46,864 nucleotides of DNA from an uncultured Clostridia bacterium. GTDB lineage: Bacteria; Bacillota; Clostridia; Christensenellales; Borkfalkiaceae. The position numbers and the translations under genes are program-made. Shown here piece by piece: positions 2 to 46,864 of the stretch; the first letter of the stretch is position 1, and every line of letters starts with the position of its first letter. Location of the stretch: positions 1 to 46,864 of the forward strand of contig CANRKK010000014.1 of assembly GCA_947631195.1 (NCBI GenBank), given 5' to 3'. The notes beneath the pieces were generated by a model that was not told the origin of the DNA, did no database searches, and saw only the letters and a list, made by a program, of their open reading frames with translations.

Positions 2-805
2 GATACCACCGACCGCAACCGCACGTCGCCCTTTGCCTTCACGGGCAATAAATTCGAGTTCAGGATGCTTGGCTCGCAGGCCAACGTGTCGGACGCAAAC
101 ATCTGCCTCAACACCATAGTCGCCGACGCATTCCAGCAAATCGCAGACGAGCTCGAAAGGGCCTCCGATTTGGAAAAGGCGGCAAACGAGCTCATAGAGA
201 GGGAGCTCAAGGCGCACTACCGCATAATTTTCAATCTCGACGGCTACGGGCCCGAGTGGGAGCCCGAGGCCGAAAAACGCGGGCTCTTGAACAAAAAGAA
301 CACCGCCGACGCCGTGCCCGTGCTGTATGAAGAAAAAAATATTTCCGTATTCGTAAGGCAGGGTGTATTCACCCGCGAGGAGGCGATAGCCCGCGCCGAC
401 ATACGGCTTGAAAACTACACTAAAATCATCAACATAGAGGCGCTGACCATGCTCGAAATGGCCAAGCGCGACATAATCCCCGCCGTATCTGACTTTGTCG
501 GCTGTCTCTGCCAGAACGTCGCGGCAAAACAGGCGGTGTGCCCCGATATCCCCTACGCCACCGAAAAGGAGCTGATAGGCCGCCTTTCGGGGCTGAACGA
601 CGAGGCGAGCGCCGCCGTCCGCAAGTTGGAGAGCGACCTTGCCGCCATAGACAAGGATGAATTTCACGCGGCCTCGCAGGCGATGGCGCACGTGATAATC
701 CCCGACATGGAGGCGCTCAGAAAGGCGGTGGACGAGATGGAAACGCTCACTTCCTCGGAATATTGGCCCTATCCGTCCTACTTCGATCTCCTCTATTCGG
801 TTTAA
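2..805 (+). CDS. glnN: Type III glutamine synthetase, C-terminal part
   Basis: The frame is open from the left edge, so the N-terminal part lies outside the window; about 267 codons remain of a family usually near 700 residues. The enzyme makes glutamine from glutamate, ammonia and ATP in the cytoplasm. The visible N-terminal stretch TSPFAFTGNKFEFRMLGS is the characteristic end of the GSIII catalytic core, followed by SDANICLNTIVADAF and a long, charged, helical C-terminal region ending in YPSYFDLLYS. This helical tail separates GSIII from GlnA-type enzymes. No strong terminator follows, and purA has its own promoter 24 bp after the stop. The family call is firm; the start and regulation cannot be seen. 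Confidence 0.93.
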   Translation, partial: DTTDRNRTSPFAFTGNKFEFRMLGSQANVSDANICLNTIVADAFQQIADELERASDLEKAANELIERELKAHYRIIFNLDGYGPEWEPEAEKRGLLNKKNTADAVPVLYEEKNISVFVRQGVFTREEAIARADIRLENYTKIINIEALTMLEMAKRDIIPAVSDFVGCLCQNVAAKQAVCPDIPYATEKELIGRLSGLNDEASAAVRKLESDLAAIDKDEFHAASQAMAHVIIPDMEALRKAVDEMETLTSSEYWPYPSYFDLLYSV

Positions 806-34323: not shown

Positions 34324-37300
34324 ATGAAAACTAACAAACTAAGTGCTAAGCTTTCACTGTTGGTTGTGCTTTTGGTTTCGTTCGTGATTATGTTCAGCAC
34401 GGGCATCGCTATGCTTGTCCGCGCCGATTCGAACACGCCCGAACAGACCGAAACGGTTACAACCACCACCTACACGGACGACTGGTACGAGATTTCCGTA
34501 AATAAAAACTCGCTGACTATCTTGCTCGACGGCAGCATAGGCAGCTACAGAAGTCTCTCCCGCGACGACATCGGCAATATCAAAAATGCCCTTCTTTCCG
34601 CCGTGCAGGAAATCATTGTAAACCCGATTTTCGAATCTTCGCAAGGACAGGGCGAGCAGAGCGGGCAGGATCCGCAGGCTTATCGCGCCGTTGCCATGAC
34701 AATAGATTCGGAGTACGGCCACGAAGGCGACTTGGAACTTGACGTAGATTCTCTGCTTGCCAAGTATGAGGACTATCTCAAACAACATCTGTCTAAGGTT
34801 GACGAAGAAACAAACCAGCCCGTCGAACTCCAAAAATTCCTCAACGGCGAATACGACTCCTTGGTAAAGTATGCCGTATCGCAGTACGTAGAAAAGCACC
34901 CCGAGCAGAATGTTGAGGAGCTGGTGCAAAGCGTTCAAGAGCAGGTTCAAGGTATCGTTGACGAGGTTATCGATAACCTTCCCTCAGACGTAGTTGAATC
35001 TACCGGTAAGTCAAAAGAGGATTTAAAGGGAGAAGTTCAGGAAAAGGTAGAAACAGTAGGCTCCGAAATCCAGGAATCCGGCGGCAAATACACGCTTAGC
35101 TTAGCCGATATACTTCAGGCTTTAAAGGGAGTGAATGTCGGCGGCTATCAGATTTATTCGGGCAGCAAATTTGTGCTCGGAGAGATAAGGCAGTTGCTTT
35201 CCACATTGCCCCGCCCCGCGGAAATCGCAGAAATGGATAAGCTGCAGCTTACCTACAAAATCGTAATCGAAACAACTTTCGGTTCGTCCTCGTTCAACCT
35301 CACCGTGGGCCTCAAGGGCAACGTTGAGATATTCAAAAAGGCCGCCGCGTTTATAGCAAGCCACGTAAACGCTTACGTTGACGACGGCGTGTACACCCTC
35401 GATATAACCGTACCCGACGAGTTCACGTCCCTCGTTCTCAAACTTGCAAACACTACGAGAATACCCGACAAGTTGAAGCACGCGGTATTCGGTCTGTTCG
35501 ACAAAACGGGCGACGAAATAGTGGATAAGGCCACGTCCTACTCGCTTGACGAAATACTCGAGTACATACAGGGCCACGACTTCCACAAGATATTCTCCGC
35601 GCTTTTGGACGCGCAGAAACTCAACGACTTCTTCGGCAGATACGGCGTTGACCTCAGCAAGGTTACGCAGGCCCGCATCGACAGGTTGCTCAACCTCGTT
35701 GTGGACTATGCCGAAAAGGTTGCAAACAAAAAGACCGTCGAAGGTATCGAGGCGCTTTTGCAGGAATACGGAGTACCCGGAATCCCCGCCCAGCTCGAAG
35801 AGGCGGTGCAGAGGTTCCTCAACCTTCTCAACAAAATCGACTATAAATATTGGGATGCCGAAACCATAAAAGAGTTTGTAAACAATGCAGACAGGTTCAA
35901 TTCCAAAGTTAACGCGGCTATCAGCAGGGTTGCAAACAGCGCCACTGCCGAAAAGATTTACAACAAGTTTGTCGACTACGCCGTACGCGTGTTCAACAAA
36001 CTTCCTTCCAAGCTGCACAACGGCACGCTGCTCGGCCTGTACGACGGCGACAGCCACCTGTCCTTTGCGGGCAATTTTGACTACGACGTAAGGGCGCTCC
36101 TCAAAAGAGTTCTCGATAAAGTCCTTCCCTATGTCGAAAAGCTCGGCTCCGAAACGCTCGACAACTACGCGCAACATATCGAGGACATAATCGACGAATA
36201 TTTCACGGGCGATATGTCTTTCAACTTCGACCTTGCGCTCAACGTATCCACGGTTGACATCTACAGGGTTGACTACATGGTAGGCGACCAAACCGTTTCG
36301 TCGGGACTTCTTCCCGTCGGCGCAGACGTTGGGTTCTTCGCAAATATGACCGAAGTTAACGGCTACAAAATTGTCGGCTGGGCAGAGGGCGACGCAAGCT
36401 ACACCGAAATGCCCGGTCACGACGCAGTGCTTCAGGCTGTCACCGAATTTGACGCCGAACTCCAATACAACGGCGAAGTTGCGCCCGCTAAAATCGAACA
36501 GTATTTTGGTGACCCCATAGAGCTCAACGCCGTTGTCACCCATCCTTTTATCACCGATCCCGAAGCATTTAATTATATATGGTATAAGGACGGCGAGGTT
36601 TATGACGCGCCGGATTCCGCAACTCTCACCCTCCAACAAGTAGAAGACAGCGGTACATACTATTGCCACGTTGTCTATGCTGTAGGCGACCTGAAGGTTG
36701 AAGTTGACACCGAACCGGTTGAAGTTATAATCAACAAGGTTCCGGCAATCGATCTCACAGACGCATATTGGCAGTTGGATGATTTACCCCAAGGCGAAAA
36801 TACTGTAACGTTTGACGGCAAGCCTCACACAGTTCATATCATACTTTCTTCAAAGTATAATGACGAGGAGATGTTGGAAACCTATCAGGCGGCTGTCTTG
36901 GGTGCTTGTGTCGGTGATCGTGAAAAGACCGATGCCGACAAATATACAATCACGCCCGATTTTGGAGACCACATCGAAGACTTAGAGGTTCTCAATGGTG
37001 AAAGTTTTCCGGCCTTTGATTGGGAGATTCTACCCGCTGTAGCCGATTTCACCGGCGCAGAATGGCAGATTTATGCTAACGATGAACTTGTTGCAAAAGA
37101 AGATTGGGGCAATCTTACCTATCAGGAAGGTGTAACTTATACAATTGTATTGAATACTGACAGTGCAAAGTCTTTACACTTTGTAAATAAGCAGTATTAT
37201 ATTAAACTTACAGGCGAAACTATCGAAACCGATGCTAATGAAGAGGGCAAAACATACAAGGTATATGTTACAATTATGTTTAAGCCCGAAGATGGCGAAG

Positions 37301-40300
37301 AAGTAGAAACTAACAACTATACTATTACAAATTTGACCGACAACCCGTTTGTGTGGACTATTAATAAATATGTAATAGACCTCAGCAATATTTCTTGGCA
37401 GTTGGACGGTGAAGATGTAACATCTGAAGTACCTTCTGTAACGTTTGACGGCAAGCCTCATACCGTTGCGCTTAAATTCGCTGAAGGGTACGAACAATAT
37501 GAGGATTTGGTTGATATTACCTATGGCGGTGATGCCAAAACCCAAACAAATGCCAACACCTACACGGCTACGGCAACGTTTGTGTTAAAGGATAAAGACA
37601 ACTACAAACTTGTAGGTGGCGATACCATTGAGCTTAATTGGGAAATAACCAAATATGTCGTAAGCCTTGTAGGACTTAAGTGGACTTCCGAGACGACGTT
37701 CACGTACAAGAAGGGCACTACGTACTCCGTAGCTCTCACGGAAGAAAGTCTGGCGTCAATCATAGACTATGTTGACGTAGCATATGAAGGAGAGAGCGCA
37801 GAGGCTGCAGGCACGTATCATGCAAAGGTAACGATTACTTTAAAAGAAGAGTACAGCGACGGCAACTACGAGCTAAAAGGCGAGGGGCCTGCTCAACTTG
37901 AATGGACAATTATCAAAGCCACCGTAAGCCTTAAAGGACTTGAGTGGACTTCCGAGAAGACGTTCACATACGAGAAGGGCACCACGTACTCCGTAGCGCT
38001 CACCGAAGAAAGCTTGGCGTCAATCAAAGACTATGTTGACGTAGCATATGAAGGAGAGAGTGCAGAGGCTGCAGGCACGTATCATGCAAAGGTAACGATT
38101 ACTTTAAAAGATAAAGACAACTACCAGTTTGACGGCGACCAGCCTGCTCAGCTTGAATGGAAAATTGAAAAAGCAACCGTAAGCCTTAAAGGACTTAAGT
38201 GGACTTCCGAGAAGACGTTCACATACGAGAAGGGCACCACGTACTCCGTAGCGCTCACCGAAGAAAGCTTGGCGTCAATCAAAGACTATGTTGACGTAGC
38301 ATATGAAGGAGAGAGTGCAGAGGCTGCAGGCACGTATCATGCAAAGGTAACGATTACTTTAAAAGATAAAGACAACTACCAGTTTGACGGCGACCAGCCT
38401 GCTCAGCTTGAATGGAAAATTGAAAAAGCAACCGTAAGCCTTAAAGGACTTAAGTGGACTTCCGAGAAGACGTTCACATACGAGAAGGGCACTACGTACT
38501 CCGTAGCGCTCACCGAAGAAAGCTTGGCAACAATCAAAGACTATGTTGACGTAGCATATGAAGGAGAGAGCGCAGAGGCTGCAGGCACGTATCATGCAAA
38601 GGTAACGATTACTTTAAAAGATAAAGACAATTACCAGTTTGACGGCGACCAGCCTGCTCAGCTTGAATGGAAAATTAACAAAGCCCCTGTAAACATTGAA
38701 GGTATCGACTGGGCATGGGACTACGACGATGTAAAACATATCGAGTTTGACGGCAATCCTCACTCCGTAACATTAACCGACGCATGCTGGTCTGCCGTTG
38801 CTGAATATGTAAAAGTTAACTACAGCGGTGACAAAGCCAAAACCGAAGTTGGCAACTATTCGACAACAGCAACTGTTTCGTTAAAGGATGTAGACAACTA
38901 CGAACTTAAAGGCGCACAGCCCGATAAACTTGATTGGCAGATTGATCCCGCTAACATTGACTTCGCAGGTGCAACCTGGAGCGGTACCGATTTCACCTAT
39001 GACGGTAATCTTCACGAAGTTACTTTGAACAACGTTCCCGAAATGCACCTTGCAAGCGGTTATGCCTATAAACTCTTGGGTACAAAGTCCGAAACCGAAG
39101 CAGGCACATACGAAGTTACCGCCGCAATCGTAACGGTGGCAGACGAAAAAGTAACGGACAACTATGCGATTATTAACTTGACCGTTAACCCGCTTTCTTG
39201 GACCATTTCACCCAAGGCGATTGATATCACAGGCCTCAAATGGGGTGAAACTTCTATCTATGGTTTTACCGGCGATACAATCACAATAAAGCTTGATCCC
39301 AGCGAGGAAAGCATTGAAGACCGTGACAAAATTGACATCGGCTATTCGGGCAACGCACAATCCATAGTCGGCGTATATAACGCTGTAGCAACGGTTACGG
39401 TAAAGCCGGAGTACAGTGATAACTACGTTCTTGACGGCGAAACCGAGTTGACTAAGGAGTGGGCAATAGTTCCCGTTCAAATCAACGGCTGGCTGATCAC
39501 GTGGGACTACACCGAACCTTTCGAGTACGATGGCAATGATCACACGGTTCAAATAATCAACCCGTACGAAAAGTATAAAACTCTCTATGGTGTTCAGTTT
39601 GAGGTAACCTATACCAACAACACCGGTAAAGAGATCGGCAAATACACCGCAACTGCAAAGATTGCAGTCCTGAACAATGACGACGGCAACTATGAAATAA
39701 TTAACGATATTGCAGATTGCGAATGGGAGATCGTTGCAAAGACAGAGCCTCCCGTAACCGACCTCAACAAGACTTTGGACGACGGCACGACGGTTGACGT
39801 AGCCGCACAGGGCGGCGCGCTTCCCGCAGGTTCACAGCTCAATTCGGCTGTATCCCAAAACGAGTACACCCCCGACCAGTTCAAGCCTTTCGTAAAGAGC
39901 GGCTACAAGCCCGGCAGCATCGTAAAGGTTTACAGCATCGACATATCCGGTTTGGGTAGCTATGCGGGATCCTTCGCGGTATCCATTCAAAATCCCGACT
40001 TCCTCGGCAAAGATCTGATAGTTGTTCACGTTCCTCTCGATGCAGACGGCAAACCCGTCGACGCAGAGCAGTGGATGAACGCACAGGCAACCCTCAGCGA
40101 AGACGCTCTCACCTTCAACACGGATCATTTCTCCGACTTCGTTGTTATAGAGCAAGTTCCTCAGGAAGTTGACAACCTGTGGTGGGTATGGTTGCTTGTT
40201 GCAATAATAATCATCCTTCTCACAATCATAATCATTCTCATAATCGTGCTTATACGCTCCAACAAGAATTCGGGCGAACCCGACGACAACCGCGTGATAA

Positions 40301-41016
40301 TCATCAACACCGAAGAAGTTGCCGAAGAGCCCAAGGAGGAGCCGCAAACCGAGCCCGTCGTTGAGGAAGAACCCGTAGTAGAGCCCGAGGAACCCGCCGT
40401 TGAGGAAGTTCCCGCCGAGCCCGAACAGCCCGACGAAACGGCCGTTGCCGAAGAAGCTCCCGCGGAAATTGCCGCACCCGAAACAACGCCCGTAGTCCTC
40501 GCGCCCCTCGGCGCAGGCGAGCGCTATGTGATGGATAAGAGCTTCACCGCCCGCTTATCGCAGGCCGACGACAGCGTAAAGCAAAACTATTCCGAATTGA
40601 AGAACTACATACTTTCCTACAAGGGCGTAAGGTCGCGCATCAGCTGGCATTTTGACTCCTTCAACAAGGGCAGAAACAAGTGCCTCAAGTTGCAAATCCG
40701 CGGCAAGTCGATGTACATGTACATCGCGCTCAACCCTGCCGAAGTCGAAGAAAAGTACCACGCAAAGGACGTTTCCGACAAGACAAGGTACGCCGACGTG
40801 CCCACGATGCTCAAAATCCGCAAGCCTCGTTCGCTGAAGTATGCAAAGCAGCTCGTTGACAAACTCATGGCAAGCCTTGAAGTTCCGCAGGGCGACATCC
40901 CCAACACGGATTATAAACCCGTCCGCCAGTCCAACGAAGCGTTCCTTCAGCTCGGCTATATCAAAATCAAAGTTACAAAGCGCAATTTCCACAACATAGG
41001 GAATGAGAAGAAGTAA
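34324..41016 (+). CDS. Giant membrane surface protein with repeats and cytoplasmic domain
   Basis: 2230 residues. A signal or anchor helix (about 9-33) is followed by a long, mostly helical region (40-640), a beta-rich InlB-like segment (about 640-700) and an Ig-like domain (about 700-800) with VEDSGTYYCHV. An array of MBG-like beta modules (about 803-1805) follows, each with a TFDGKPHTV-type strand and a closing NxxLxW(T/E)I strand; four consecutive modules (1112-1454) are near copies. A further domain precedes a membrane helix (about 1950-1978). A Glu/Pro-rich linker (1985-2055) leads to a basic, folded-looking cytoplasmic domain (2066-2230) containing SRISWHFDSFNKGRNKCLKL. That domain resembles, from memory, an uncharacterised domain common in Clostridia. 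There is no sortase motif. It is likely a surface structure linked to the cell interior. Confidence 0.82.
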   Translation: MKTNKLSAKLSLLVVLLVSFVIMFSTGIAMLVRADSNTPEQTETVTTTTYTDDWYEISVNKNSLTILLDGSIGSYRSLSRDDIGNIKNALLSAVQEIIVNPIFESSQGQGEQSGQDPQAYRAVAMTIDSEYGHEGDLELDVDSLLAKYEDYLKQHLSKVDEETNQPVELQKFLNGEYDSLVKYAVSQYVEKHPEQNVEELVQSVQEQVQGIVDEVIDNLPSDVVESTGKSKEDLKGEVQEKVETVGSEIQESGGKYTLSLADILQALKGVNVGGYQIYSGSKFVLGEIRQLLSTLPRPAEIAEMDKLQLTYKIVIETTFGSSSFNLTVGLKGNVEIFKKAAAFIASHVNAYVDDGVYTLDITVPDEFTSLVLKLANTTRIPDKLKHAVFGLFDKTGDEIVDKATSYSLDEILEYIQGHDFHKIFSALLDAQKLNDFFGRYGVDLSKVTQARIDRLLNLVVDYAEKVANKKTVEGIEALLQEYGVPGIPAQLEEAVQRFLNLLNKIDYKYWDAETIKEFVNNADRFNSKVNAAISRVANSATAEKIYNKFVDYAVRVFNKLPSKLHNGTLLGLYDGDSHLSFAGNFDYDVRALLKRVLDKVLPYVEKLGSETLDNYAQHIEDIIDEYFTGDMSFNFDLALNVSTVDIYRVDYMVGDQTVSSGLLPVGADVGFFANMTEVNGYKIVGWAEGDASYTEMPGHDAVLQAVTEFDAELQYNGEVAPAKIEQYFGDPIELNAVVTHPFITDPEAFNYIWYKDGEVYDAPDSATLTLQQVEDSGTYYCHVVYAVGDLKVEVDTEPVEVIINKVPAIDLTDAYWQLDDLPQGENTVTFDGKPHTVHIILSSKYNDEEMLETYQAAVLGACVGDREKTDADKYTITPDFGDHIEDLEVLNGESFPAFDWEILPAVADFTGAEWQIYANDELVAKEDWGNLTYQEGVTYTIVLNTDSAKSLHFVNKQYYIKLTGETIETDANEEGKTYKVYVTIMFKPEDGEEVETNNYTITNLTDNPFVWTINKYVIDLSNISWQLDGEDVTSEVPSVTFDGKPHTVALKFAEGYEQYEDLVDITYGGDAKTQTNANTYTATATFVLKDKDNYKLVGGDTIELNWEITKYVVSLVGLKWTSETTFTYKKGTTYSVALTEESLASIIDYVDVAYEGESAEAAGTYHAKVTITLKEEYSDGNYELKGEGPAQLEWTIIKATVSLKGLEWTSEKTFTYEKGTTYSVALTEESLASIKDYVDVAYEGESAEAAGTYHAKVTITLKDKDNYQFDGDQPAQLEWKIEKATVSLKGLKWTSEKTFTYEKGTTYSVALTEESLASIKDYVDVAYEGESAEAAGTYHAKVTITLKDKDNYQFDGDQPAQLEWKIEKATVSLKGLKWTSEKTFTYEKGTTYSVALTEESLATIKDYVDVAYEGESAEAAGTYHAKVTITLKDKDNYQFDGDQPAQLEWKINKAPVNIEGIDWAWDYDDVKHIEFDGNPHSVTLTDACWSAVAEYVKVNYSGDKAKTEVGNYSTTATVSLKDVDNYELKGAQPDKLDWQIDPANIDFAGATWSGTDFTYDGNLHEVTLNNVPEMHLASGYAYKLLGTKSETEAGTYEVTAAIVTVADEKVTDNYAIINLTVNPLSWTISPKAIDITGLKWGETSIYGFTGDTITIKLDPSEESIEDRDKIDIGYSGNAQSIVGVYNAVATVTVKPEYSDNYVLDGETELTKEWAIVPVQINGWLITWDYTEPFEYDGNDHTVQIINPYEKYKTLYGVQFEVTYTNNTGKEIGKYTATAKIAVLNNDDGNYEIINDIADCEWEIVAKTEPPVTDLNKTLDDGTTVDVAAQGGALPAGSQLNSAVSQNEYTPDQFKPFVKSGYKPGSIVKVYSIDISGLGSYAGSFAVSIQNPDFLGKDLIVVHVPLDADGKPVDAEQWMNAQATLSEDALTFNTDHFSDFVVIEQVPQEVDNLWWVWLLVAIIIILLTIIIILIIVLIRSNKNSGEPDDNRVIIINTEEVAEEPKEEPQTEPVVEEEPVVEPEEPAVEEVPAEPEQPDETAVAEEAPAEIAAPETTPVVLAPLGAGERYVMDKSFTARLSQADDSVKQNYSELKNYILSYKGVRSRISWHFDSFNKGRNKCLKLQIRGKSMYMYIALNPAEVEEKYHAKDVSDKTRYADVPTMLKIRKPRSLKYAKQLVDKLMASLEVPQGDIPNTDYKPVRQSNEAFLQLGYIKIKVTKRNFHNIGNEKK
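37657..38685 (+). repeat. In-gene tandem array, 255-bp units
   Basis: Units at 37657-37920 (264 bp, diverged), 37921-38175, 38176-38430 and 38431-38685 (255 bp each). The last three differ at only a handful of bases, including synonymous sites (GGCACC/GGCACT, AGTGCA/AGCGCA), which shows recent duplication. Each encodes an 85-residue module beginning at VSLKGL and ending near QLEWKIEKAT. Copy number may vary between strains and the array may collapse in assemblies. Confidence 0.95.
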
Positions 41017-41243: not shown

Positions 41244-41274
41244 TAAAAGCCGCAACGCAAGTTAAACCGTGTCA

Positions 41275-41396
41275 TTTTGCGCGCCCGCGACACATCCTCC
41301 CTGTTATTATGTGCGCGCCCGCGACACACCCTTCCTGTCATTCTGAGTCGGGCGCAGCCCGACGAAGAATCTGTCGCGCAGCGACTTTTTAAAACA
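41275..41396. repeat. Short tandem repeats leading into family D
   Basis: Two ~38-bp units of GCGCGCCCGCGACACACCC plus TTCCTGTCATTCTG-like spacer (41276-41335) run into a family D copy at 41332-41396 (GAGTCGGGCGCAGCCCGACG). The arrangement is repeated at 41644-41778, so the block has been duplicated. Confidence 0.78.
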
Positions 41397-41620: not shown

Positions 41621-41643
41621 AGTCGTTCCGCTTGAGCTAAGCC

Positions 41644-41870
41644 CTTCCTGTCATTCTGCGCGCGCCAGCGACACACCCTCCCTGTCATTCTGTGCGCGCC
41701 AGCGACACACCCTTCCTGTCATTCTGAGTCGGGCGCAGCCCGACGAAGAATCTGTCGCGCAGCGACCTTTTAAAACAATTACAACAAACATTAAAGCGTG
41801 TCATTTCGAGTCGAAGGGAGACCCGCTGAAAGCGGGCGACCGAGCGAGATTTCTCACACGGCGTAAGGGC
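41644..41870. repeat. Family D block copy 2 followed by a family B copy
   Basis: GCGCGCCAGCGACACACCC units at 41658-41710 precede family D (41718-41778). A family B-type element (41795-41870) with the hairpin CCCGCT-GAA-AGCGGG follows. Bases 41871-41965 are then unique sequence in which I see no gene. Confidence 0.75.
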
Positions 41871-45281: not shown

Positions 45282-45310
45282 TTGACTTGTAACACTATTT
45301 ATTCTATAAT
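45282..45310 (+). promoter_or_regulatory. Sigma-A promoter of the Cys-repeat peptide
   Basis: TTGACT (45282-45287), 17 bp, TATAAT (45305-45310). The peptide ATG is 31 bp downstream with GGAGGT at 45330-45335, spaced 5 bp. The close match to consensus predicts good expression of the peptide. Confidence 0.82.
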
Positions 45311-45340
45311 TATAATATCTAATCGTAACGGAGGTAGTCT

Positions 45341-45517
45341 ATGTTTGTATTGAACGACAGAGAAGCGGCTTTGCTCGATAGCCTCATGGTTGACTGCAAC
45401 GACTTATATCTTGAAGAGAGCGTAAAGTACAAGAAGGACTGCGGCAGCAGTTGTTCCGGCAAGTGCGGCGAAAGCTGCCAGGCACTTTGCAAATCTACCT
45501 GCTCGGCATTGTTCTAA
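45341..45517 (+). CDS. CXXX-repeat peptide, probable RiPP precursor
   Basis: 58 residues behind a strong promoter and an ideal ribosome binding site. The N-terminal part (1-33) looks like a leader: MFVLNDREAALLDSLMVDCN, then an acidic/aromatic stretch ending KYKKD. The C-terminal part has Cys34, 38, 42, 46, 50 and 54, a perfect CX3 repeat (CGSS CSGK CGES CQAL CKST CSAL) ending in Phe58; one more Cys is at 19. A radical SAM/SPASM gene follows 59 bp later. This fits precursors of thioether-bridged peptides (ranthipeptide-like). SCIFF peptides share CQxxCKxxC elements, but their spacing is less regular. The mature structure and role are unknown. Confidence 0.85.
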   Translation: MFVLNDREAALLDSLMVDCNDLYLEESVKYKKDCGSSCSGKCGESCQALCKSTCSALF

Positions 45518-45537
45518 ACCAAAATAAAAAACCGATC

Positions 45538-45563
45538 GGGCCATGTGCTTAGGTATATGGCCC
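45538..45563 (+). promoter_or_regulatory. Hairpin between precursor and radical SAM gene
   Basis: GGGCCAT (45538-45544) pairs with ATGGCCC (45557-45563) around a 12-nt loop, followed by ATTTTGTCTT. It is a weak terminator-like structure that could let only part of transcription reach the enzyme gene, giving more peptide than enzyme. It ends 13 bp before the enzyme's ATG. Confidence 0.65.
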
Positions 45564-45576
45564 ATTTTGTCTTATT

Positions 45577-46674
45577 ATGTTAAAAAGAAAAATCATCACG
45601 TTAACCCTTACCCAATCCTGCAACCTTCACTGTTCATACTGTTTCGAGGGCCACAAATCGGGCAGCCACATGGATATGCCCATGATAAAGCGCATCCTCG
45701 ACGATATGCTCAACGACGACAAGTTTGACGAGTTTGAAATCGACCTTTTCGGCGGCGAACCCTTTTTGGAGTTTGACCTAATAAAGCAAACTTTCGACTA
45801 TGTAAAGGATACCTATCCCACAAAGCCGCTCGTATTCTGCGCCACCACAAACGGCACTTTGGTACACGGTGAAATTCAGGAATGGCTGAAAAAGCGCGCC
45901 GAAGTGTTCGTGTGCGCGCTCAGCCTCGACGGCACCAAGCGCATGCACGATATCAACCGCTGCAACAGCTTCGATTCAATAGACATAGATTTCTTTGCCA
46001 AAACGTGGCCCAAGCAGCCCATGAAGATGACCGTCTCCGCCGAATCCCTCAAATATCTTGCGGAGGGCATAATCTTCATGCACGAAAACCACTACGCTTT
46101 CACCTCTAACCTCGCCTTTGACATAGACTGGTCGGACGAAGCCAACACCAAGGCCATAGAAACGCAGCTGAAAATTTTGATAGATTACTATCTTGCCCAC
46201 CCCGACGTGGAGCCCTGCCAGTTTTTAAACGTGCCCATATTTATGGTTGCGGCCACCAAAAACGAGGAAACTTTCCGCCAGTGCGGCGCGGGCGTGGAGA
46301 TGTTCACCTTTGACGTGGACGGGCACGGCTATCCCTGCCAGTTCTTTATGCCGCTCACCCTCGGCGCCGAAAAGGCCGAAGAGGCCAAATCGCTCTACTT
46401 CCCCGAGGAAATCTCCCGCAGCGACTTTGTCGGCGAATGCAGGGACTGCATGGCCTTAAGAATTTGCCACACCTGCTACGGGTCCAACTACGCGTCCACG
46501 GGCAACATCTACCAAAAGGACATGAATTGGTGCAAGTTGCAAAAAATCACGTTCAAGGCAAACGCCTATTTCCGCCTAAAGCAGCTCGAAAACAACACTT
46601 TCCACTGCGACGAAGAGGAAGAGTATCCCTTCTGGATAAAGAGCATCAAAATGCTTCTGACCGAATTCAACTGA
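45577..46674 (+). CDS. Radical SAM/SPASM peptide maturase
   Basis: 365 residues. The radical SAM cluster motif CX3CX2C is at Cys15, Cys19 and Cys22 (CNLHCSYC), almost at the N-terminus, so there is no N-terminal peptide-binding RRE domain. DLFGGEPFLE near residue 57 is the usual SAM-binding GGEP motif. The SPASM domain has Cys236-X12-G-X4-Cys254, then Cys288-X2-Cys291-X5-Cys297-X2-Cys300 and Cys319, enough for two auxiliary iron-sulfur clusters. It most likely crosslinks the peptide encoded just upstream. The ATG lacks a Shine-Dalgarno sequence and follows a hairpin. The best comparison from memory is the CXXX-repeat peptide maturase group; sulfatase maturases share the fold. Confidence 0.87.
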   Translation: MLKRKIITLTLTQSCNLHCSYCFEGHKSGSHMDMPMIKRILDDMLNDDKFDEFEIDLFGGEPFLEFDLIKQTFDYVKDTYPTKPLVFCATTNGTLVHGEIQEWLKKRAEVFVCALSLDGTKRMHDINRCNSFDSIDIDFFAKTWPKQPMKMTVSAESLKYLAEGIIFMHENHYAFTSNLAFDIDWSDEANTKAIETQLKILIDYYLAHPDVEPCQFLNVPIFMVAATKNEETFRQCGAGVEMFTFDVDGHGYPCQFFMPLTLGAEKAEEAKSLYFPEEISRSDFVGECRDCMALRICHTCYGSNYASTGNIYQKDMNWCKLQKITFKANAYFRLKQLENNTFHCDEEEEYPFWIKSIKMLLTEFN

Positions 46675-46728
46675 TTTTCTTTGGCTTATAGCAGCTTAAT
46701 TTAACCAAAATCTCCCGCACGCCTTTCT

Positions 46729-46864
46729 CCTGTCATTCTGAGGAGGGCGCAGCCCGACGAAGAATCTGTCGCGCAGCGACCTTTAAAATAATCACAACAA
46801 ACATTAAAGCGTGTCATTTCGCGCGAGGGCTTTGCCCGCTGCTCTGCCGAGGGCTCCCTTTGGG
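46729..46864. repeat. Family D copy followed by family G at the window edge
   Basis: CTGTCATTCTGAGGAGGGCG and the rest of family D end at about 46794. ACAACAAACATTAAAGCGTG follows, as after the D copy at 41718. A family G piece then runs off the edge (GCGCGAGGGCTTTGCCCG, CCGAGGGCTCCCTTTGGG), matching the insertion at 11708-11750. No gene is visible after 46674. Confidence 0.8.

Follow-up and report, generated by a model that had tools for sequence, protein, structure and literature searches.

What does a radical S-adenosylmethionine (SAM) enzyme do beside a peptide whose cysteines recur at every fourth residue? This question is raised by a two-gene locus near the end of the window, by which we mean the whole 46,864-nucleotide stretch of contig CANRKK010000014.1 from an uncultured Clostridia bacterium. 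An earlier note had described the locus as a compact cassette like those of ribosomally synthesized and post-translationally modified peptides (RiPPs), and both open reading frames (ORFs) and their pairing across relatives agree with that description. The enzyme ORF begins 59 bases beyond the peptide ORF on the same strand and the contig ends 190 bases past it. We consider it rather probable that the six-cysteine precursor is cross-linked through its sulfurs by the adjacent radical SAM/SPASM enzyme, which is predicted to act without a RiPP recognition element (RRE).

The core cysteines of the peptide (residues 34, 38, 42, 46, 50 and 54) all lie within its final 25 residues at a spacing of four throughout, as had been claimed, and a seventh cysteine is found at residue 19 inside the leader. 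The spacing had been called perfect, which holds for the window peptide and its nearest relative (locus L038), but the peptides of L033 and L039 begin with CX4C and the second copy in the same genome (L002) begins with CX2C. Among 33 family peptides, which were chosen beforehand on a loose cysteine pattern, 179 of the 219 cysteine-cysteine intervals were exactly 4, 23 were 3 and 6 were 5, and the number of cysteines per peptide ranged from 4 to 16 (16 in the L068 peptide). Exact CX3 spacing is a tendency of the family and no fixed rule. Between cysteines spaced by four, glycine was observed at the second position in 97 of 179 cases. In the subclade of the window, the C-terminal motif CG[GES][ST]CQAxCKS[ST]C[ST]xLF was found in all 15 peptides. 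A profile built from six family peptides retrieved 29 database relatives at E<=0.1, including the window's own entry (P0124).

The enzyme contains a radical SAM motif, CX3CX2C (C15, C19 and C22), and seven SPASM cysteines (C236, C254, C288, C291, C297, C300 and C319), which bears out the earlier assignment of its class. None of the ten Fe-S cysteines varied in an alignment of 36 relatives or in one of 83, and all of them align with those of CteB (profile alignment against 5wgg, E 3.3e-39), which has the same seven-cysteine SPASM arrangement. The AlphaFold2 model, which covers the enzyme alone, opens at the first strand of the barrel (residues 4-12) and therefore has no N-terminal RRE. The enzyme thus starts at the radical SAM core and lacks the SCIFF-type element, as the earlier note had maintained in setting it apart from SCIFF. 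CteB was the top fold match, with model residues 1..337 matching CteB 90..450.

A radical SAM enzyme might also alter the peptide without involving the sulfurs, for instance by epimerising a C-alpha or by forming a C-C (cyclophane) bond, and leave free cysteines to act later. We regard this as unlikely, since the fixed-spacing cysteines are the feature conserved across the relatives, the window core has no aromatic residue other than F58 and the seven-cysteine SPASM region aligns with that of CteB. The cyclophane synthase ChlB (PDB 9gm3, 9gmc), whose C-C chemistry is given by the PDB titles and by a reference title in PMC12636437, differs from the window enzyme in having only 16% identity with it.

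A scan of the collection with six enzymes gave at least 80 loci (L038-L117), the closest 35 of which (L038-L072) have 33-83% enzyme identity. An ORF of 30-200 residues with CX3CX3CX3C, on the same strand and within 1 kb of the enzyme, was found in 24 of these 35 loci and in 21 of 30 clusters at 70% enzyme identity. When the flanks were shuffled in 100 rounds with exact dinucleotide content, no locus had such an ORF (a less exact shuffle gave a mean of 0.02), and among 1703 other ORFs in the same loci only one fits the pattern, where it adjoins a second enzyme copy in L052. With a looser cysteine pattern and a distance of 2.5 kb, a short Cys-rich ORF was found in 26 of the 35 loci. Eight of the remaining nine (L048, L049, L050, L051, L055, L058, L062 and L065) have a short Cys-bearing ORF nearby as judged by eye, and in the ninth, L053, the enzyme lies at a contig edge. 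Homologues that consistently lack the peptide were looked for, and this was not the pattern observed. Judged from sequence, the two genes also stand together in microbes of distant relationship, as a branch whose scores fall short of the cut-offs of the closest curated families.

Within the window organism's own family, short enzymes occur in 5 of 151 genomes (two copies in G000, one each in G009, G011, G084 and G150), and all six adjoin a Cys-ladder peptide. Weaker enzyme matches, where checked in the own genome, were ScfB adjoining SCIFF, and the further 45 scan loci (L073-L117) have a SACKTSCT SCIFF peptide in 36 cases. At E<=1e-45 the short enzyme is sporadic: with the own genome counted, 2 of the 93 genus genomes and 3 of the 341 class genomes have it. 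Database relatives of the enzyme at E<=1e-3 number at least 1532, more distant maturases included. One enzyme subclade (L048, L050, L051, L053, L055 and L058 together with L049; support 96) is of a different kind, where in L048, L050, L055 and L058 the Cys ladder is replaced by a two-Cys peptide that ends in GCx4CxAWD and a Ser/Thr kinase-like gene is located downstream in four loci (tested by Pfam in two).

No transporter, protease or immunity gene adjoins the window cassette, in agreement with what had been noted, and Peptidase_C39 had no match in the own genome (0 of 1), whereas 8 of 14 control genomes were positive. Because this genome has no C39 peptidase and the cassette has no linked exporter, the product probably stays intracellular. 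When ORFs of at least 70 residues were clustered across 40 loci, wide recurrence was limited to the enzyme and the peptides, and no third gene was common to the whole family. ABC-type ATPases of mixed kinds in 7 of the 40 loci are local and not family-wide, as are GNAT-like genes in 5, a helix-turn-helix protein in 4 and a Ser/Thr kinase in 4. Sulfatases were absent from the gene families recurring in at least 3 of the 40 loci, the relatives not having been searched individually for them. In two Clostridia loci a UvrA-like ABC ATPase is located directly 3' of the enzyme (L067:2036-4162 and L069:5132-7261), and a role for these proteins as peptide exporters was ruled out by Pfam. A protein of about 240 residues lies 3' of the peptide in four loci (L035:6148-6879, L036, L042 and L044) and, in the two cases tested, matched nothing in NCBIfam and nothing over cut-off in Pfam.

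A regular Cys ladder would also suit a metallothionein-like scaffold whose thiols bind a metal or cluster and which the enzyme merely trims or activates, and the absence of a nearby export or leader-peptidase gene and of a C39 peptidase from the genome fits such an intracellular protein. We nevertheless find this quite unlikely, as such a peptide accompanies a SPASM maturase in 24 of 35 loci, which indicates modification, the core has no His and the peptide had no Pfam metallothionein match at E<=1.

One of the closest known systems is SCIFF/ScfB (CteA/CteB, Tte1186; TIGR03974), from which the window cassette differs in having no N-terminal RRE, another leader, no final CX6C and an enzyme in a separate clade. 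The SCIFF pattern CX2CX3CX3CX3CX6C is not found in the window peptide, which has CX3 five times and lacks the distal Cys, and Pfam SCIFF was unmatched at E<=1 (the L033 peptide reached only E 0.28). When the motif of the window subclade was compared with SCIFF CxxSCQSACKTSCTVxN, the non-Cys columns gave p=0.004 by column shuffling. Single peptides of the subclade gave.073 (L038),.044 (P0134),.019 (L033),.015 (P0129),.006 (P0131) and.002 (P0135). These values, that of the subclade profile included, come from related rows and carry no multiple-test correction. The likeness is suggestive of a kinship between the core of the window subclade and that of SCIFF. A SCIFF origin of all CX3 peptides was not upheld, as the likeness is limited to this subclade and distant peptides gave p from 0.35 to 0.87.

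It is very unlikely that the cassette is an ordinary SCIFF system after RRE loss, with the Cys-Thr bond at C-gamma and the still unknown role of SCIFF unchanged: the core motif likeness, CteB as nearest fold and the CX2CX3CX3CX3C found in some family peptides would suit it, but the enzymes form a separate clade scoring 89 bits on TIGR03974 (cut-off 425), a separate SCIFF/ScfB pair is already present in the genome and the invariant i+2 residue is Ser and not Thr. That pair is of standard type (L003, G000:C29), is additional to the two short-enzyme cassettes and adjoins ORFs that by eye resemble SecDF and YajC.

PapB, the freyrasin maturase (NF047865), belongs likewise to a thioether-forming radical SAM/SPASM family with three-residue spacing and gave the window enzyme its top NCBIfam score (140.4 bits), which is below the cut-off of 340. 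In PMC9413430 the freyrasin links are described as joining Cys and Asp within CX3D. The window core contains neither CX3D nor CX3E, with no Asp or Glu at i+4 from any core Cys, and the distinction from freyrasin drawn in the earlier note is thus sound. PapB as nearest relative was ruled out, as ScfB-like proteins reach about 285-300 bits on NF047865.

The contrast with known systems had been drawn too sharply, since CX3 repeats beside a SPASM enzyme already have a name in NCBIfam, where the Haft series (TIGR04114-TIGR04119) covers CXXX-repeat targets (TIGR04114, TIGR04117 and TIGR04118) and maturases (TIGR04115 and TIGR04119). The likeness lies in a radical SAM/SPASM enzyme adjoining a short CX3CX3CX3C peptide and in tree position. 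In our trees, which were quick, used only the Shimodaira-Hasegawa-like approximate likelihood ratio test (SH-aLRT) with a midpoint root and carried long-branch warnings, the 41 short enzymes form one clade (SH-aLRT 100). In the wider tree the sister group (support 90, not starred) holds the TIGR04115 maturase P0151, whose upstream peptide has CX3CX3CX3C, together with relatives from phage contigs. On TIGR04115 the example WP_012797095.1, from plasmid pAPRE01 of Anaerococcus prevotii, reaches 487 bits, and it also has a fused TIGR04119 domain (278.8 bits), whereas the window enzyme, of 365 residues, scores 128 bits (cut-off 350) and has no TIGR04119 domain over cut-off.

All 36 family enzymes match TIGR04115, with a best E of 1.6e-45 as against 4.3e-146 for the true member, and TIGR04115 was over its cut-off in 0 of 348 genomes of the phylum. 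In the own genome the TIGR04119 (CXXX_matur) domain gave three weak matches, none above the 150-bit cut-off and all inside radical SAM proteins. The peptide has the CX3 repeats of a CXXX-repeat target adjoining the enzyme, five in number, with the target models below cut-off (TIGR04117, 18.2 bits, cut-off 50). The best NCBIfam scores of the enzyme lie at 128-140 bits against cut-offs of 340-350. By the curated models the cassette is a member of neither SCIFF/ScfB, PapB nor TIGR04115, because each has a tested feature that is absent here, and on these sequence comparisons it would best be placed next to the CXXX-repeat maturases, as a new branch without an RRE.

On plasmid pAPRE01 (L234, NC_013164.1), which is conjugative, the TIGR04115-TIGR04119 fusion, a CX3 peptide, ABC transporters and a LanKC gene lie in one stretch. 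Enzyme relatives of about 26-34% identity were also observed on IMG/VR contigs (L154, L158, L160, L167, L168, L169, L171, L173, L176 and L177). These loci hold long Cys-repeat proteins, such as L167:2244-2996 (250 residues) and L158:5558-5950, which has a YVGVNG-type tail. Of five such proteins, three match phrog_6085, which has no known function, and two match TIGR04114. They are possibly phage proteins matured by a radical SAM enzyme.

For the window cassette, sulfur cross-linking remains the favoured explanation, and the enzyme most likely works like a ranthi- or sactipeptide maturase. The short MFxL-type leader would be read by the body of the enzyme itself, with no use of an RRE. The open site of the auxiliary [4Fe-4S] cluster would hold the thiolate of a substrate Cys, an arrangement proposed for CteB, whose chemistry and open cluster site are described in PMC8326336 and PMC8172795. 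The 5'-deoxyadenosyl radical would abstract H from a nearby residue, the sulfur would then close the thioether and this closure would be repeated along the CX3 ladder.

In SCIFF the fourth Cys of CKTSCT was linked to Thr37 in vitro or to Thr34 on co-expression, the latter via C-gamma, according to the same two papers. Window residues S55 and S52 are the equivalents of Thr37 and Thr34. By analogy with the SCIFF link (Cys32 to Thr34/Thr37), the likeliest link would run from C50 (CKSTCS) to S52 or S55. Because Ser has no gamma carbon, such a bond would be at C-alpha or C-beta if the geometry is the same, unlike the C-gamma bond of CteA. The candidate acceptors beside the core cysteines are Ser, Thr or Gly in place of Asp.

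Several observations weigh against this explanation. The cassette is known here from its genes and no product has been seen. The residues on the acceptor side vary, with Ser/Thr/Asn at +3 in 91 of 179 cases, Gly in 36 and Asp/Glu in 14. The window peptide alone compares with SCIFF at p=0.054 and seven distant family peptides at 0.35 to 0.87, and the enzyme start codon has no clear Shine-Dalgarno sequence. In addition, every one of the 36 family enzymes gives matches at E<=1e-10 to maturases that differ in their chemistry, and anSME and ChlB are the next fold matches after CteB; the chemistry is therefore not fixed by the scaffold.

A bolder and more doubtful proposal is that SPASM enzymes of a widespread family, all lacking an RRE, bind a short helical leader directly, walk a CX3 ladder of 5 to 16 Cys and chain small thioether rings onto the alpha or beta carbons of Ser, Gly or Asn to give an intracellular, ladder-like poly-thioether, with the phage-like sister branch treating long Cys-repeat proteins likewise. 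Such links would differ from the known ones, which are to Asp, Glu, Thr or Asn. If sulfur cross-linking is indeed what happens, the cassette would offer a clean two-gene test bed for substrate recognition by a radical SAM maturase without an RRE. It would also test whether a single enzyme can make many thioethers along a Cys ladder of strict period with Ser/Thr/Gly neighbours as against Asp, which would widen the known acceptor chemistry, and would give a name and a boundary to the family of database relatives counted above, distant maturases included. Our literature search found no paper that names the family; most subscription journals lay outside the search and an earlier mention is possible.

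Features of the two-gene cassette, with positions in the window
Feature	Position	Strand	Basis
Sigma-70-like promoter, TTGACT-17-TATAAT	45282..45310	+	11/12 consensus bases
GGAGG ribosome-binding site, 6 nt 5' of peptide start	45330..45334	+	Sequence reading
Peptide ORF, 58 residues	45341..45517	+	ORF list
Leader, residues 1-33 (boundary inferred)	45341..45439	+	Stretch preceding first CX3 Cys; MFxL start common to close relatives
Core, residues 34-58, CX3CX3CX3CX3CX3C-SALF	45440..45514	+	ORF and family Cys spacing
Intergenic stem-loop (11 pairs, loop 4) with T-rich tail, possible attenuator	45538..45573	+	Fold z -3.80
Enzyme ORF, 365-residue radical SAM/SPASM maturase without N-terminal RRE	45577..46674	+	ORF list

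The start that had been given to the locus is the first base of the promoter-like TTGACT. By eye, TTGACA-17-TATCAT, -TATAGT and -TATAAT were found in the same position in L038, L033 and L039. Differing stem-loops with T-runs are located at the equivalent place in these loci, with fold z of -3.59 in L038, -2.42 in L033 and -0.84 in L039, the last not being significant. Terminator-like matches across the region are not in excess (3 observed against 2.5 expected). The intergenic stem-loop is likely to be an attenuator that would yield much precursor and little enzyme; such an excess is suggested because a strong promoter-like site is combined with a stem-loop and T-run between the genes.

The source assembly has 81 contigs and an estimated contamination of 4.34%, and for this reason the window contig may be mis-binned. 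Elsewhere in the window, a 2230-residue ORF with a signal-like start was observed at 34324-41016, where a 255-bp tandem repeat occurs four times at 37659-38684. Repeats of the TGTCATTCTG type are found upstream of the cassette at 41270-41342 and 41642-41726, and again at 46723-46766, just past the enzyme and near the contig end.
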